A DNA stretch of 60,335 nucleotides from Halobacteriovoraceae bacterium (GTDB taxonomy: Bacteria; Bdellovibrionota; Bacteriovoracia; Bacteriovoracales; Bacteriovoracaceae). The translations under genes were made by a program, and so were the position numbers. The notes under the pieces are model-generated. The model did no database searches, was not told the DNA's origin, and saw only the letters and a list, made by a program, of their open reading frames with translations. Below, in pieces: positions 23,055-40,646 of this stretch (position 1 is its first letter; each line of letters begins with the position of its first letter). The stretch spans positions 1 to 60,335 of the forward strand of contig PASP01000001.1 of the NCBI GenBank assembly GCA_002712005.1, given 5' to 3'.

Positions 23055-24331
23055 AATGAAGTATATTGGCAAAAGTTACTCTCTTCAGGGCGAGTCTTAT
23101 AGTGATTCGTACCTGTTAGAGAGTTGTATATAACTCCTGATCTCCATGCCATAAGACTTGTTTGAGGATCAGCAATTCCATGAAAATGCCTACTCATATT
23201 CATAGCAAATATCTTATTTTCTTCAGGAAGATTTGTTTCTAAAGAATAATCCTTTTTCAAACAAGGTCTCTTTTGTTCATCAAACTTAATGAGATCAGTA
23301 ATCCCCTTCGTAAATGAAGGCAATACAGTTCTAAAACCTGTCGCTAAAATGACAACATCGGCTTTTGTTGACTCTTCTTTGTTAAAAAGAAGGTTTTCAA
23401 AAGTAATATCATAAACACCTTCTGTACCTTTAGAGATATTCTTAAGCCAACGTTTAGGTGCGATTGTGAAAGTTGGATATTTCTTTAAATAGAACTTATC
23501 TAAATATAAATCTTCGTATAGAGATTCGAGATAGTGAGGAGTATTACCATCACTTGTTAATAGCTGATCCTTAACAAGGATATCTTTATTCTTTTGATCA
23601 GCATCAAGGAATTCCGATACAAAACCTGGCGTGAAAAACTCATTAGTGAAAGCCCCTTCATCTAAAGGCATCAACGTATTTCTTCCAGTGGTCAATGTGA
23701 CGCTCTCAGCCCTTCCCCATTTTCCCTCTAGAGAGTTCTTAAATATTTCTACACCAGTTTGACCCGCACCAATAATTAAAACTCTTTTTCCAGTAAGATT
23801 GAGTTTAAACATTTGCTCACTCTTTGCGTGAAAAAGACTATCACTCACATAGGGTTTCGCTTCCTCAGGTATATTCTTAACTGGCCCAGCCCCTAAGCAT
23901 AAATTCCTAGAGGTTATCTCTGAGTGATTTGTCTTAATCTCAAATGTTTTTTTATTTTCGTTATATTTTAAATCTTCAACTTCTGTAGAATATTGAATGA
24001 GTTCACTTAAATTATCTGCAGCCCACTTCAAGTAATCCTCAAACTCGTAACGAGTCACAGCTGTTCGAGATGAATTCATCAAATGATAAAACATACCCTT
24101 TGTGACTAGATAATTAGTGAAGGTATTTTTATTTGTAGGATCAAGAGGTGTTACTAAGTCCTTAAGAAAAGATGTTTGCATGGTCGAGTCTTTAAACATT
24201 ACTTCTGAATGCCATGAAAACTTGGGTTTTCTTTCGATGAATAAAGCTTTCATATCTTTATTAGCTTCAAGTAATGTAGCCAAGCTTAAATTAAATGGCC
24301 CAACACCTATACCAACAATATCATAATTCAT
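23051..24331 (-). CDS. iucD: L-lysine N6-monooxygenase (IucD-like), siderophore synthesis
   Basis: The flavin N-monooxygenase has the FAD motif GIGVGPFNLSLA at the N-terminus, the WHSEVMFKDSTMQTSFLKDL substrate/FAD block (quoted only as WHSEVMF and TSFLKDL), the NADPH motif GAGQTGVEI and the C-terminal ATGFRTVLP motif. It N-hydroxylates the side-chain amine of lysine (possibly another diamine), the first step of aerobactin-type siderophores. I start at the ATG at 24331, because GAGGGAGAG lies just upstream and MNYDIVGIG matches the family start. It overlaps the end of the preceding synthetase gene by 11 bases. It is the last gene of the operon; 426 residues. Confidence 0.94.
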   Translation of the reverse strand: MNYDIVGIGVGPFNLSLATLLEANKDMKALFIERKPKFSWHSEVMFKDSTMQTSFLKDLVTPLDPTNKNTFTNYLVTKGMFYHLMNSSRTAVTRYEFEDYLKWAADNLSELIQYSTEVEDLKYNENKKTFEIKTNHSEITSRNLCLGAGPVKNIPEEAKPYVSDSLFHAKSEQMFKLNLTGKRVLIIGAGQTGVEIFKNSLEGKWGRAESVTLTTGRNTLMPLDEGAFTNEFFTPGFVSEFLDADQKNKDILVKDQLLTSDGNTPHYLESLYEDLYLDKFYLKKYPTFTIAPKRWLKNISKGTEGVYDITFENLLFNKEESTKADVVILATGFRTVLPSFTKGITDLIKFDEQKRPCLKKDYSLETNLPEENKIFAMNMSRHFHGIADPQTSLMAWRSGVIYNSLTGTNHYKTRPEESNFCQYTSF

Positions 24332-26084
24332 TTTTCTCTCCCTCATTGTAATATACAATGGGATTCTTAATATTCCTTCCTACCAATGGTTTTGGACTGC
24401 CTGAAGTTTCTTTATATCCGATTTTAAATCGAACATTATTTACTTGGAGTTTTTCAAACTCATCTCTTAACAGATTCATCTCTGGCGGAATATTAATGTC
24501 ATTATCTTTATAAAATTGATTAATTTCTTGATTTAATAATTTAAAGAATTCAGCTTCGGACATCATCTTAAAGTCATGACAAACCCTAGCTAAATATCTC
24601 AATACAGTTACAAAATGTCCGGTCAGAAGATCATGTATCAAGTATTGAGGAGGTAATTTACTTAAGGACTTTGTCCACTCTTCTTTAAGATGGACTGATT
24701 GATCACTCATCCTTAGATCGCCATGAAAGTCCTTTAAAATAATTCCTCTTGGAATCCCTTTTTCTAAAAAAGCAACTACATTTTGACCGTGGGCAACAAT
24801 ACCTATGCCATGAATCACCTGGAGATAATATAATGGTATGACTACATTCTTAAAGTATTCTCCAAACCATTGCGTGTAACTCATTTCACTTTCTGTAATC
24901 AATTCTTTAACAAAGCTATAGTTTTTTTCACTATCACTTTCCCTAAAGAAAAATGCAGAGACAGGATAAGCACTCTGTCCCTCTTTCAAAAGAGAAGGCA
25001 CGCTCTCTCGAACAATACAGCCTAACATTTCATTAAATCTCGATGGACTTGTTTTTAATCTAGAAAAACTACCGGCCAAAACACTTAAAGCGCCTACTTC
25101 TTTAGCTATTAACACTTTATTTCTTAGGAAATTATCTTCTTCAACGACTTTTTCAAACCCTCTAGAAACCTTATAGCCATTTTCAATAAAACGCTGAGGT
25201 ATTCCACGATAGGAACTTGTATTCAAGATAGACACTGACAATTTCATATCGGGCATCTCTTTTGACTCACAATTGCTCAATGTACGTATCGAAGCTTGTG
25301 CCGAGTAATCTGGCCCCCACTCTCCAAGACTCACGAGTAAAGATTCCTCAAGCATTCCTCTATATTGAATTTGGATATACCTATTCCATTGCCAAGGGTG
25401 AACGGGAAAAACAATATAATCCTCTAAACTAATCTTTTGGTTGTTACACTTTTCGTAAATCTCAGAAAGATCAGACTGGGTGGAGTTAAGGAAAAACTGA
25501 TCATTTTTGGCTTCCTTCAAAAAATTATTATCTAACCCCAGCAATATCTGATCACGCTTTACGGCCAACCAGTGTAATTTAAACCTACTACCAGACTCTG
25601 GTGCAAATTTCTGAAATTCATCCGCTCCCCAACCAATACGTCCTTTATTATTTAAGATCTTAGGATGACCAGGAAGAGCCGAATCTATTGCATGAAAATC
25701 AAATGATAAAAAATGATTTTTTATAGTCTCAAATCTTTCTTTAAAAATGAGATCACCATAAATAGTCTGGTTTGCTTCCTCTATAAATTGGGCCAAAGTT
25801 AGCTCATCCATACCAACTATATTATTTAATTCTATGATAAAATCTTCTAAGACAATTGTTTCTTCTCTCCCCTCAACTCGCTTTATTAAAGAGCCACTTT
25901 CAATCCATACGTTGCCAAAGATCCCAACTCTCCCACTGAATCTATATTCGATATTCTTACATGGTGAAAAAAGATAATCGCCTAGACTATGTTCGTCTTT
26001 AACAAGAATTAAGAGATCTTCAAAATGTAATTCTTCAATCGCTTTTTCTACATAAGCCTCTACAGCTTGATTATACCTATTCAT
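24321..26084 (-). CDS. iucC: IucC-like NIS siderophore synthetase
   Basis: The 587-residue NRPS-independent synthetase has the IucA/IucC signatures: GHPKILNNKGR near residue 145, the HPWQW substrate-binding segment, SIRTLSN, and KLSVSILNTSSYRG in the ATP-binding core. A C-terminal ferric-reductase-like FhuF region is included. It should adenylate a citryl carboxylate and join it to the second hydroxamate arm. The ATG at 26084 is preferred: AGAGG sits six bases upstream, and the first eight codons of the longer frame lie inside the previous gene. The overlap with that gene is eight bases, which implies translational coupling. Confidence 0.93.
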   Translation of the reverse strand: MNRYNQAVEAYVEKAIEELHFEDLLILVKDEHSLGDYLFSPCKNIEYRFSGRVGIFGNVWIESGSLIKRVEGREETIVLEDFIIELNNIVGMDELTLAQFIEEANQTIYGDLIFKERFETIKNHFLSFDFHAIDSALPGHPKILNNKGRIGWGADEFQKFAPESGSRFKLHWLAVKRDQILLGLDNNFLKEAKNDQFFLNSTQSDLSEIYEKCNNQKISLEDYIVFPVHPWQWNRYIQIQYRGMLEESLLVSLGEWGPDYSAQASIRTLSNCESKEMPDMKLSVSILNTSSYRGIPQRFIENGYKVSRGFEKVVEEDNFLRNKVLIAKEVGALSVLAGSFSRLKTSPSRFNEMLGCIVRESVPSLLKEGQSAYPVSAFFFRESDSEKNYSFVKELITESEMSYTQWFGEYFKNVVIPLYYLQVIHGIGIVAHGQNVVAFLEKGIPRGIILKDFHGDLRMSDQSVHLKEEWTKSLSKLPPQYLIHDLLTGHFVTVLRYLARVCHDFKMMSEAEFFKLLNQEINQFYKDNDINIPPEMNLLRDEFEKLQVNNVRFKIGYKETSGSPKPLVGRNIKNPIVYYNEGEKNEL

Positions 26085-28293
26085 ACTGAACCTCTTTTGC
26101 ACGAACACTTTTAGTGCAACAGAGAAGCCTTGCCCTCTTATGAGGAAATGAAAACTCTTCTAATACTTCCCATCCAGTAAGAGCACCAGCAAATTTCAGG
26201 ACATTTGTATTATCAGCTCTTGGCTCACCCCAGATATGTTCTGTTCTTGGGTCATCATAAAAGCAAAAGTCTGTTATCAAGGCCAAAGCATCGAAGACAT
26301 GGCGAGTTCTCAGAACACGTTCCTCTCCAAAGAGTAAATGTATCCCTCTATCATACACAGAAGGATTACAATATGGCGCGATTCGATCATCAAACGCCCA
26401 ATAGACTTCAAAGTAACCGATAGGACTTCCGTCAAGTTCCACAATTAAAGGAAGTGTACTATTACTTTCGTAGAGATCTTCTAAATATTTCTTCAGTTTT
26501 TCTTTTGAAAAGTTTAATTCCCAAAACTCGCTAACAAAATCTTTATTATGCCATTCATGAAATATATCTAAATCTTTATCAACATTGATTTTTCTCAATG
26601 AAAGTTTCTTTCCGTTTCTTGGATTAACTTTTTCTAATAAATTATCAAAGGAATAAGTTTTACTTTTTCGAAGAGAAGATAATGGATTTATGATCCTATT
26701 ATAAATAGCCCATGGATTTTCCATTGTATTTTCGTCATTAGATCCTACTGTACAACGAAAATTTCCTTTTTGATAAACCTGCTCTTGATCGATCCAATAA
26801 TCAAAGAAGTGGGTACCTCGCGGCAACTCCTTCCTTAAGTCAAACAAAAAGTTCTTGAATGAATTAAGTAGGATAAATTCAGTCTTTTTATTCTTAAAGG
26901 CCAATGCCCCAATTGTAGTAAAAATCGTATTAACGACAAGATAATAGCCAAAGACTTTATTTATATTATCTTCATCAATGACAAGAGCTTCCTTAGTGAC
27001 TTCAGGATTAAATCTCTCTTTTCCAAACTTAGTTAACCCAGTTCCTTGGCAATCTCTATACTCAGCCCCTATAGGATAACCATCTTTAAACTCAACAATT
27101 AGATTTTGTAAGTGGGCACCTACAAGAACTCCTTCTCCAAAAGCTAAGGCCATTATGGGCTTTATCACGTTATCTAAAAATCGACTAAACCAGTTTTCGA
27201 TTTTATAAGAATCAGAAAAATTTAAATCCTTAGTGGCTTCAAGTGCGATTTCTCTAATTAATGGAGCGTCGTCTATGGACTCACATAAAGTTGCTAACAC
27301 ATAAGACTCTTCAACCTTCCCCTTAAGTTTCTCTCTTAATTGGAAAATTGTTCTATCATCTAATTGGTCATCAGCCTTTATTCCTCCGAATGTACTTTCT
27401 CTTTGAATATGAAAATGGGGATATTGATTGAAAAAGTCATTTAACTCTTGTCCTTCAAAAACTTGGTTAATCACATTTGATCGCTTCAAGTCACTTCCAT
27501 TTAATATTCGAATCGAATTCGTTAATTTAACGGGCAAGGAAAATTTAAGATAGCTAGGCGCATCTGGGCTATATAATGTACGCATTGAAGAACAGGCAAA
27601 CCATTTTCTTATTCCATAGAGGAATGTAGATGAAGATAAGTCACGATCTCCTATCTTAAAATTTGCTCTAATTAAATCTTCGTATTGCAAAGGATGCATC
27701 GGAATAAAAGGCTCATCTTTTTTATCTAAACCAAGATCAAATTCTCTTAGGGCTGCTAGAGTTATTTCTTCACTGGTTTCTATCAAAGATAGATAATTGG
27801 GATCAACTTGAACCCATATAATTTCAAAACCATTAGCATATTCTGGTGAATACTTTTCTATTTCTTCATTAGATATATTACCTTTTAGTTTTGGAAACGG
27901 ATGAAAAGGGTGACCTAGAAATAGCATCTGCTCTGACTCTAGATAATTAGTGATCTCTCTCTTTCTTTGAAGTATTTTTTCTAGTTCTTCACAATTTTTT
28001 AAGAATTGCTCTTTAAATTCCTTCTCTGCTGAGAAAATGGTTACAAGTAAATCGATTAAGTCCTCTATCGTTTTAGGATGACCTTCTAAATCAGTAATCT
28101 CATTTTCATAGCGATGAAGACCAACTAGAGAATAATAATGAAAGTTAATCTTTAAGGATTCAGATCCACCTTTAATAACCAACTTACTCTCATCTACACA
28201 TACTGATCTATGATCAGAAAAATCTCTCAATAAAGAATTCAATATAGGCTGAACTAAAATGGAATTTGTAGCTCCATAAGTCTTATTTGGCAT
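26077..28293 (-). CDS. Fusion of IucA-like synthetase and IucB-like acetyltransferase
   Basis: The 738-residue protein joins two aerobactin enzymes. Residues 1 to about 545 form an IucA/IucC synthetase, with GHPFHPFPKLKG, MHPLQYEDL, SSMRTLYSPDAPSYLKFSL-type ATP-core sequence (quoted as SMRTLYS) and a GAHLQN motif. Residues about 560-738 form an IucB/AlcB-type acyltransferase, with WHNKDFVSEFW, GYFEVYWAFDDRIAPY, YDRGIHLL, DDPRTEHIWGEPRADN and FPHKRA. The second half should acetylate N-hydroxylysine, and the first half should condense it with citrate. Fusing them may channel the hydroxamate. In E. coli these are separate genes, iucA and iucB. It overlaps the upstream gene by 11 bases. Confidence 0.93.
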   Translation of the reverse strand: MPNKTYGATNSILVQPILNSLLRDFSDHRSVCVDESKLVIKGGSESLKINFHYYSLVGLHRYENEITDLEGHPKTIEDLIDLLVTIFSAEKEFKEQFLKNCEELEKILQRKREITNYLESEQMLFLGHPFHPFPKLKGNISNEEIEKYSPEYANGFEIIWVQVDPNYLSLIETSEEITLAALREFDLGLDKKDEPFIPMHPLQYEDLIRANFKIGDRDLSSSTFLYGIRKWFACSSMRTLYSPDAPSYLKFSLPVKLTNSIRILNGSDLKRSNVINQVFEGQELNDFFNQYPHFHIQRESTFGGIKADDQLDDRTIFQLREKLKGKVEESYVLATLCESIDDAPLIREIALEATKDLNFSDSYKIENWFSRFLDNVIKPIMALAFGEGVLVGAHLQNLIVEFKDGYPIGAEYRDCQGTGLTKFGKERFNPEVTKEALVIDEDNINKVFGYYLVVNTIFTTIGALAFKNKKTEFILLNSFKNFLFDLRKELPRGTHFFDYWIDQEQVYQKGNFRCTVGSNDENTMENPWAIYNRIINPLSSLRKSKTYSFDNLLEKVNPRNGKKLSLRKINVDKDLDIFHEWHNKDFVSEFWELNFSKEKLKKYLEDLYESNSTLPLIVELDGSPIGYFEVYWAFDDRIAPYCNPSVYDRGIHLLFGEERVLRTRHVFDALALITDFCFYDDPRTEHIWGEPRADNTNVLKFAGALTGWEVLEEFSFPHKRARLLCCTKSVRAKEVQYE

Positions 28294-39529: not shown

Positions 39530-40153
39530 ATGAATTTTTTAAACATTCTCATCTTATTACTCGTCCCATTCTCCTTATCAGCACAAGAAATATCGACCGT
39601 AAAAGTTTTCGATGGGCTTGTCGCTAAATGCAGCTCGAACCGAGACCTCAATAATCTAGGAGCCTATATATTAAAAGCGAAGGATGCTTCTATTATTGAT
39701 GGCAATTATTTAAATCTTAAATTGAATTTGTCTTTTTTCAATTGCCAAAAAAACAGAAATCAATTCAAGCTTGTAAGTGCATCTCCTTATACTACAACAA
39801 GGAGTCTGATTCATAAGAAAAGTATAGAGAAGAGAGTAAATTTAGTGAGTTTGCAAGCTTATCGTGACGGTGTTTATGAACTCTTATTAAATCGTCCAAT
39901 TGAAGATGGTAATTCTTCTTTTAACAATATCGAATTCTCAACTGATCTCAATGACATTCTTAATCAAGAAGAAGCTGCCACTTTAAAAGAAAAAGGAAGC
40001 GTAGCTATCTCTATTGACTTCTCTCTAGTGAAAGAAGTTGAAACATTTGTAGATGGTATTTCTTATTTCAATGACAGAGTAGCTTTTGGAAATTTTCGAG
40101 TTCACTTGAAAATTGAAGAAAGTGAAAAAGGTCACATGGTGAAACTTAAGTAA
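39530..40153 (+). CDS. Secreted protein of unknown function
   Basis: The 207-residue protein has a typical Sec signal peptide (1-18, ending LSAQ). The mature chain is polar, with two cysteines and an alternating pattern that suggests beta structure. No domain is recognised. AAGGAAA lies upstream of the start. The gene has its own 106-base upstream gap and shares a bidirectional terminator with the convergent histone-fold gene. Confidence 0.82.
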   Translation: MNFLNILILLLVPFSLSAQEISTVKVFDGLVAKCSSNRDLNNLGAYILKAKDASIIDGNYLNLKLNLSFFNCQKNRNQFKLVSASPYTTTRSLIHKKSIEKRVNLVSLQAYRDGVYELLLNRPIEDGNSSFNNIEFSTDLNDILNQEEAATLKEKGSVAISIDFSLVKEVETFVDGISYFNDRVAFGNFRVHLKIEESEKGHMVKLK

Positions 40154-40154
40154 T

Positions 40155-40182
40155 AAAAAAGGCCGGAAAACCGGCCTTTCTT
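40155..40182. terminator. Bidirectional terminator between convergent genes
   Basis: AAAGGCCGG and CCGGCCTTT form a 9-bp stem around an AAAA loop, with an A-run on one side and T residues on the other. The T-tract is stronger for the minus strand (histone-fold gene) than for the plus strand. Confidence 0.9.
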
Positions 40183-40212
40183 ATATAAAAATAAATTATA
40201 ATTTATTTTTAA

Positions 40213-40482
40213 TTAAGCTAGGATGTCGTAAGGACGGATAGTCTTACGTCCGTTAGCAGCACAACGCTTTTGAGCTTGCTCAACAGCTTGATATACTAGG
40301 TCGTTAAGAGCATCAAGAGTGTCAGAAGAAACATTAAATGTGTTTTTCCCAGACCCTTTAAGAGCTAGCTTAGTTTTTGAACCAACAACAAGAACTTCTC
40401 TTTTTGCTGATTTTTTAGTTGTTGTTTTTTTAGCTGCTTTTTTCTTAGTAGCTTTCTTCTTAGTGGCTTTCTTCTTGGCCAT
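40213..40482 (-). CDS. Histone-fold protein with lysine-rich N-terminal tail
   Basis: The 89-residue protein has two parts. Residues 1-28 are a Lys/Ala/Thr tail (repeats of KKKAT type) like the tails of H1-like proteins. Residues about 30-89 fit a single histone fold: a first helix near KTKLALKG, then NVSSDTLDALNDLVYQAVEQA as the long helix (quoted here as NVSSDTLDAL), and NGRKTIRPYDIL matching the RKT-xx-D loop and third helix. Bacterial histones of this kind are abundant chromatin proteins in Bdellovibrio. The ATG at 40482 has GGAGGA four bases upstream. It is likely a DNA-binding nucleoid protein; the fold call is from pattern only. Confidence 0.85.
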   Translation of the reverse strand: MAKKKATKKKATKKKAAKKTTTKKSAKREVLVVGSKTKLALKGSGKNTFNVSSDTLDALNDLVYQAVEQAQKRCAANGRKTIRPYDILA

Positions 40483-40646
40483 GATTTCCTCCATAAGGTT
40501 TATCAATCATTGATTATCGATATGCTTAAGTTTGAGCAAATGAGCTGTATTTTGCAAGTAAAAAATCAAAGAATCAGCTAATTCGTACGCTTAAAACGTA
40601 TTTAAAACCTAAAAAGGATGCTTTTTTTACATAAATGAGAAAAAAA

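Follow-up and report, generated by a model that had tools for sequence, protein, structure and literature searches.

The window analyzed here (the whole stretch of 60,335 nucleotides of contig PASP01000001.1 from a Halobacteriovoraceae bacterium) carries at 40213..40482, on the minus strand, a gene for a tailed histone of putative FtF type, recognized from its open reading frame, sequence matches and an AlphaFold model. The frame runs from an ATG at 40482 to 40213, with a GGAGG just 5' of this ATG in a ribosome-binding region at 40483..40495 (minus strand). The 89-residue product (MAKKKATKKKATKKKAAKKTTTKKSAKREVLVVGSKTKLALKGSGKNTFNVSSDTLDALNDLVYQAVEQAQKRCAANGRKTIRPYDILA) has a net charge of +18 and a pI of 10.4. 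A sequence-only reading had placed the product at these positions and described it as a Lys/Ala/Thr-rich tail joined to a single histone fold. The observation is confirmed, in that the gene does encode a small histone whose lysine-rich tail is predicted to be disordered; the interpretation built on it is, as a whole, partly supported.

The gene stands alone. It is co-directional with ung, 164 bp away, and convergent with a gene at 39530-40153 on the plus strand, and between the two convergent genes lies the strong hairpin that had been called a shared terminator (40153..40186, unstranded). With a fold energy of -20.8 kcal/mol (z -5.6) on the histone strand, it is a probable bidirectional terminator, though a consensus scan did not list it. 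Across 42 fetched loci ung is near the histone gene in three and the convergent gene in one; since the neighborhood is not conserved, it gives no sign of an operon or of linked functions. Upstream of the gene, at 40527..40566 (minus strand), is an element consisting of TTTTTTACTTGCAAAA, 14-15 bases and TCAAACTT, which all seven examined members of the genus retain, some of them in slightly altered form, amid surrounding DNA that has diverged. Its first part, TTTTTTACTTGCAAAA, has a single mismatch-free occurrence in the genome. A TTGCAA with the same spacing was not seen upstream of the histone gene in other genera, nothing promoter-like came out of a sigma-70 scan of the histone strand upstream of the gene, and Rfam has no element near the gene. 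The element is probably a promoter or an operator or regulator site. Separately, visual inspection of the translations suggests a siderophore cluster at 24321-28293 of the window: a pair of neighboring genes resembles IucA/IucC siderophore synthetases, a gene next to the pair resembles a lysine/ornithine monooxygenase, and TonB-receptor-like genes lie close by.

The histone fold occupies residues 29-89 (40216..40398, minus strand). An AlphaFold monomer prediction, made with an alignment of 36 sequences, gives the helix-loop-long helix-loop-short helix arrangement of a histone (helices 34-42, 53-76 and 84-88), with pLDDT 87-94 in all blocks from residue 31 on. Helix 3 is truncated to five residues (84-88), as in FtF histones. 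The R-x-T...D clamp of the histone-fold superfamily is present as RKTIRPYD, in which D86 aligns with D62 of HLp; the RKT loop that the sequence-only reading saw near the end is thus real, but its spacing is RKT-xxxx-D and not RKT-xx-D. The best matches are solved bacterial histones. With phmmer the best sequence match is HLp (9QT0, E 1.5e-7; about 39% identity over the fold), followed by HBb at E 1.6e-5, and the family profile matches HLp and HBb (E 1e-21 and 7e-21) and also HTkC and archaeal histones. In structure comparison HBb ranks first in Foldseek with HLp also leading, and VIA-align gives a tie in fold match (HLp Z 8.2, 1.1 A over 57 residues; HBb Z 8.1), with archaeal HTkC at 7.7 and eukaryotic H3 and archaeal HMfA near 6.2. 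The Pfam matches, taken up to E 10, do not include the HU/IHF profile PF00216, the family that would have spoken against a histone. Histone models of Pfam and NCBIfam match below their cut-offs only, so automatic annotation may well call the protein hypothetical. Matches of the whole protein to OFCC1, YbaB and tRNA ligase models in the same collections were low-complexity tail hits and were dismissed as composition artifacts. A PHROGs search with the histone gave no match, leaving a phage origin unsupported.

Is this a tetramer-forming or a dimeric histone? FtF histones form closed tetramers via R49, N53 and R55 (HLp numbering), and bacterial dimers such as HBb are without the first two (PMC11390915, PMC12701072). 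R73, N77, R79 and D86 of the window histone correspond to R49, N53, R55 and D62 of HLp, and because the first three sit at FtF interface positions we file the protein as FtF. HBb has S and D at the R49 and N53 positions. The N and the RKT are invariant in 47/47 sequences of the tailed group and 21/21 of the tailless group, and at the R49 position 25 of the 47 have R and 22 have K. The competing view, that this is an HBb-type dimeric, DNA-bending histone with an incidental tail that never forms an FtF tetramer, can point to the model, which HBb fits as well as HLp does and for which it heads the Foldseek list, and to interface residues that differ from HLp (Q71, A76). In the phmmer alignment the HLp dimer-core residues L42 and L47 are A66 and Q71, and HLp S52 is A76; these differences, and the K at the R49 position in about half of the tailed group, also count against the FtF reading favored below. 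Against the dimer view, relatives keep R73 and N77, HLp is the better sequence match, and the class Bacteriovoracia is reported to have FtF histones (Schwab et al. 2024, PMC11390915). We consider the dimeric form unlikely; judged by its residues, the window histone belongs with the FtF histones and would form a tetramer. The sequence-only reading had taken it for a Bdellovibrio-type histone with an unusual tail, a view that is not supported, given the residue grouping and the published account of positive tails as a common trait of bacterial FtF histones (PMC11390915).

The tail (residues 1-28; 40399..40482, minus strand) is predicted to be disordered, from composition and from pLDDT of about 45-58. 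It contains 14 K, 6 A, 5 T, 1 R and 1 S and has a net charge of +13 in 26 residues; in the 48 other genes of the window no 28-residue stretch has more than 9 K, versus the 14 here. The label H1-like fits this composition, but the tail is N-terminal and, in this species, proline-free, and the globular part has the fold of a core-type histone where linker histone H1 has a winged helix. The sole cysteine is C74 and the tail has none, so the zinc ligands of a ZZ finger are missing. Because PMC11390915 already reports FtF histones in Bacteriovoracia and common positive tails, the tail exemplifies something already known, the charged tails of bacterial FtF histones, and is not a new kind.

The genome holds three histones, namely the tailed FtF protein, a tailless FtF paralog of 61 residues (L002) and a ZZ-finger histone, plus three HU/IHF-family genes, so that the histone need not be the main organizer. 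The ZZ zinc-finger protein, of up to 168 residues, is encoded at L172 1495-2001 (minus strand; contig C3:271312-271803 of genome G000). Of 129 surveyed genomes of the class, 78 gave matches, nearly all of which fell into three groups: tailed-type FtF, tailless FtF paralog and ZZ histones. Both FtF forms occur in 14 genomes of this set. Named relatives from the DNA scan are mostly Bacteriovoracaceae and Halobacteriovorax; a literature search on Halobacteriovorax histones found none. With ribosomal-protein genes of the same genome as reference, the codon adaptation index (CAI) of the tailed histone is 0.726, the highest of the window (genes of the window, 0.556 +- 0.048; ribosomal proteins, 0.702), with p 0.0014 in residue-matched resampling. 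Elsewhere in the genome the tailless paralog reaches 0.763 and one HU gene 0.783, and two IHF-like genes have 0.577 and 0.581. Codon use thus predicts that both FtF histones are highly expressed, which supports the earlier expectation of strong expression. It is conceivable, though we think it very improbable, that the tailed and tailless forms arose by duplication in Bacteriovoracaceae and mix in one tetramer, their relative expression setting how many basic tails each particle carries, and thus chromatin compaction, through the life cycle.

Tails vary greatly among relatives. In 48 tailed-group sequences they range from 2 to 40 residues (median 16) with the fold conserved; 29 have at least 10 residues and 19 fewer. 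Those of at least 10 residues are 50% K, 30% A and 12% T. Examples from named genomes are Bacteriovorax sp. DB6_IX (about 30 aa), BSW11_IV (about 26) and H. marinus (about 19). Other families of the phylum have tails of similar composition, of at least 10 residues in 15/40 sequences. In a tree of 110 fold sequences the tailed and tailless groups are mostly apart, and presence of a tail of at least 10 residues changes at least 13 times, implying repeated gain or loss; this count is approximate, since the tree is a quick one from 60 columns with many unresolved forks, and the place of HLp in it, on a very long branch, is meaningless. Several sequences deserve separate mention. One FtF-like core (L051, contig C54 of G039) bears a 35-residue tail (MATKRKATTTKRRTPAKTTTRKTTTSARKATSTRR) that is Arg/Thr-rich and not Lys/Ala-rich. 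A genome from another family of the phylum (G265; L087 / L165) has a tailed-type histone with 78% identity over the fold, which suggests transfer between families. Close relatives in metagenome bins titled Omnitrophota and Acidobacteria (L142, L145, L148, L168, L169) reflect either gene transfer or mislabeled or mixed bins.

Since 19 of the 48 tailed-group sequences have fewer than 10 tail residues, the function common to the group cannot depend on the tail; being variable and often nearly absent, tails would modulate function and not define it. The same variability weakens the proposal that the tail is closer to eukaryotic ones, as many orthologs have almost none. It also fits a view of the tail as a low-complexity sequence that is nearly neutral, grows and contracts, and supplies generic charge only, and the 2-40 residue range and repeated changes on the tree are what this view expects. 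That said, seven species of the genus share an identical start of the tail (MAKKKATKKKA, residues 1-11) while 9 of these 11 codons differ between them by synonymous changes only, which suggests constraint on this part at the protein level. Beyond residue 11 the tails of these species vary in length and sequence (17-27 residues), and the remainder looks free to vary within a basic composition. The K/A/T composition moreover recurs in many lineages, and the tailless paralog never has more than 7 tail residues in 21 sequences from 21 genomes. We regard near-neutrality as a minority possibility. Alternatively, the tail might be a platform for regulation, where acetylation or another modification of the lysines adjusts DNA binding, as in eukaryotic tails and some bacterial HU proteins. 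Its 14 lysines in a disordered segment would suit this, as would a precedent from Streptomyces, where the deacetylase CobB1 reportedly raises the DNA affinity of the HU homolog HupS. However, Schwab et al. judged a ZZ-finger reading of bacterial tails unlikely (PMC11390915), and we hold such a platform to be improbable.

We favor, with a probability of roughly 70%, an abundant FtF nucleoid protein in which a tetramer would wrap DNA and the tails would hold wrapped or neighboring DNA. Two monomers would form a histone handshake dimer, and two dimers a closed tetramer via the end of helix 2, loop 2 and helix 3. This tetramer might wrap about 60 bp of DNA, as HLp of Leptospira does in simulation, MNase fragments for that protein being 35-72 bp (PMC12701072). 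Four lysine-rich disordered tails would exit the fold just before helix 1 and could make non-specific contacts with the backbone of the wrapped DNA or of neighboring duplexes, giving higher affinity and compaction. Mycobacterial HupB cannot associate with the nucleoid without its lysine-rich tail (PMC5676037).

Though ordinary in kind, the window histone lends itself to experiments on tails. For the question of what bacterial histone tails do, the tailed FtF family supplies a natural comparison set: one conserved fold, tails of very different length and a tailless paralog in the same cells make the contribution of the tail directly testable. Beyond the known family, the analysis adds three histones in one genome, the tail variation, the codon bias and the conserved upstream element.

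Among known systems, HLp, the FtF histone of Leptospira perolatii (9QT0-9QT2), likewise has a histone fold, a short helix 3 and the residues equivalent to those of the window protein at the interface and clamp. It differs in its N-terminus, of which only about 7 residues are unresolved against about 28 strongly basic ones here, and in the stretch after helix 1, which is longer by 3 residues in the window histone. HBb (Bd0055) of Bdellovibrio bacteriovorus (8CMP, 8FVX, 9EZZ, 9F0E) shares the fold and the RKTxxxxD loop but is tailless, dimeric and, as noted, different at two FtF interface residues. The tailed FtF histones of Schwab et al. 2024 carry N-terminal, mostly positive tails on FtF cores, as here, and the text gives no tested tail function (PMC11390915). 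Mycobacterial HupB/MDP1, a tailed HU, is a functional parallel, being an abundant nucleoid protein with a lysine/alanine-rich extension with KAAK/PAKK motifs (PMC5676037); it has an HU fold and a C-terminal tail, however, and is not homologous to the window histone.
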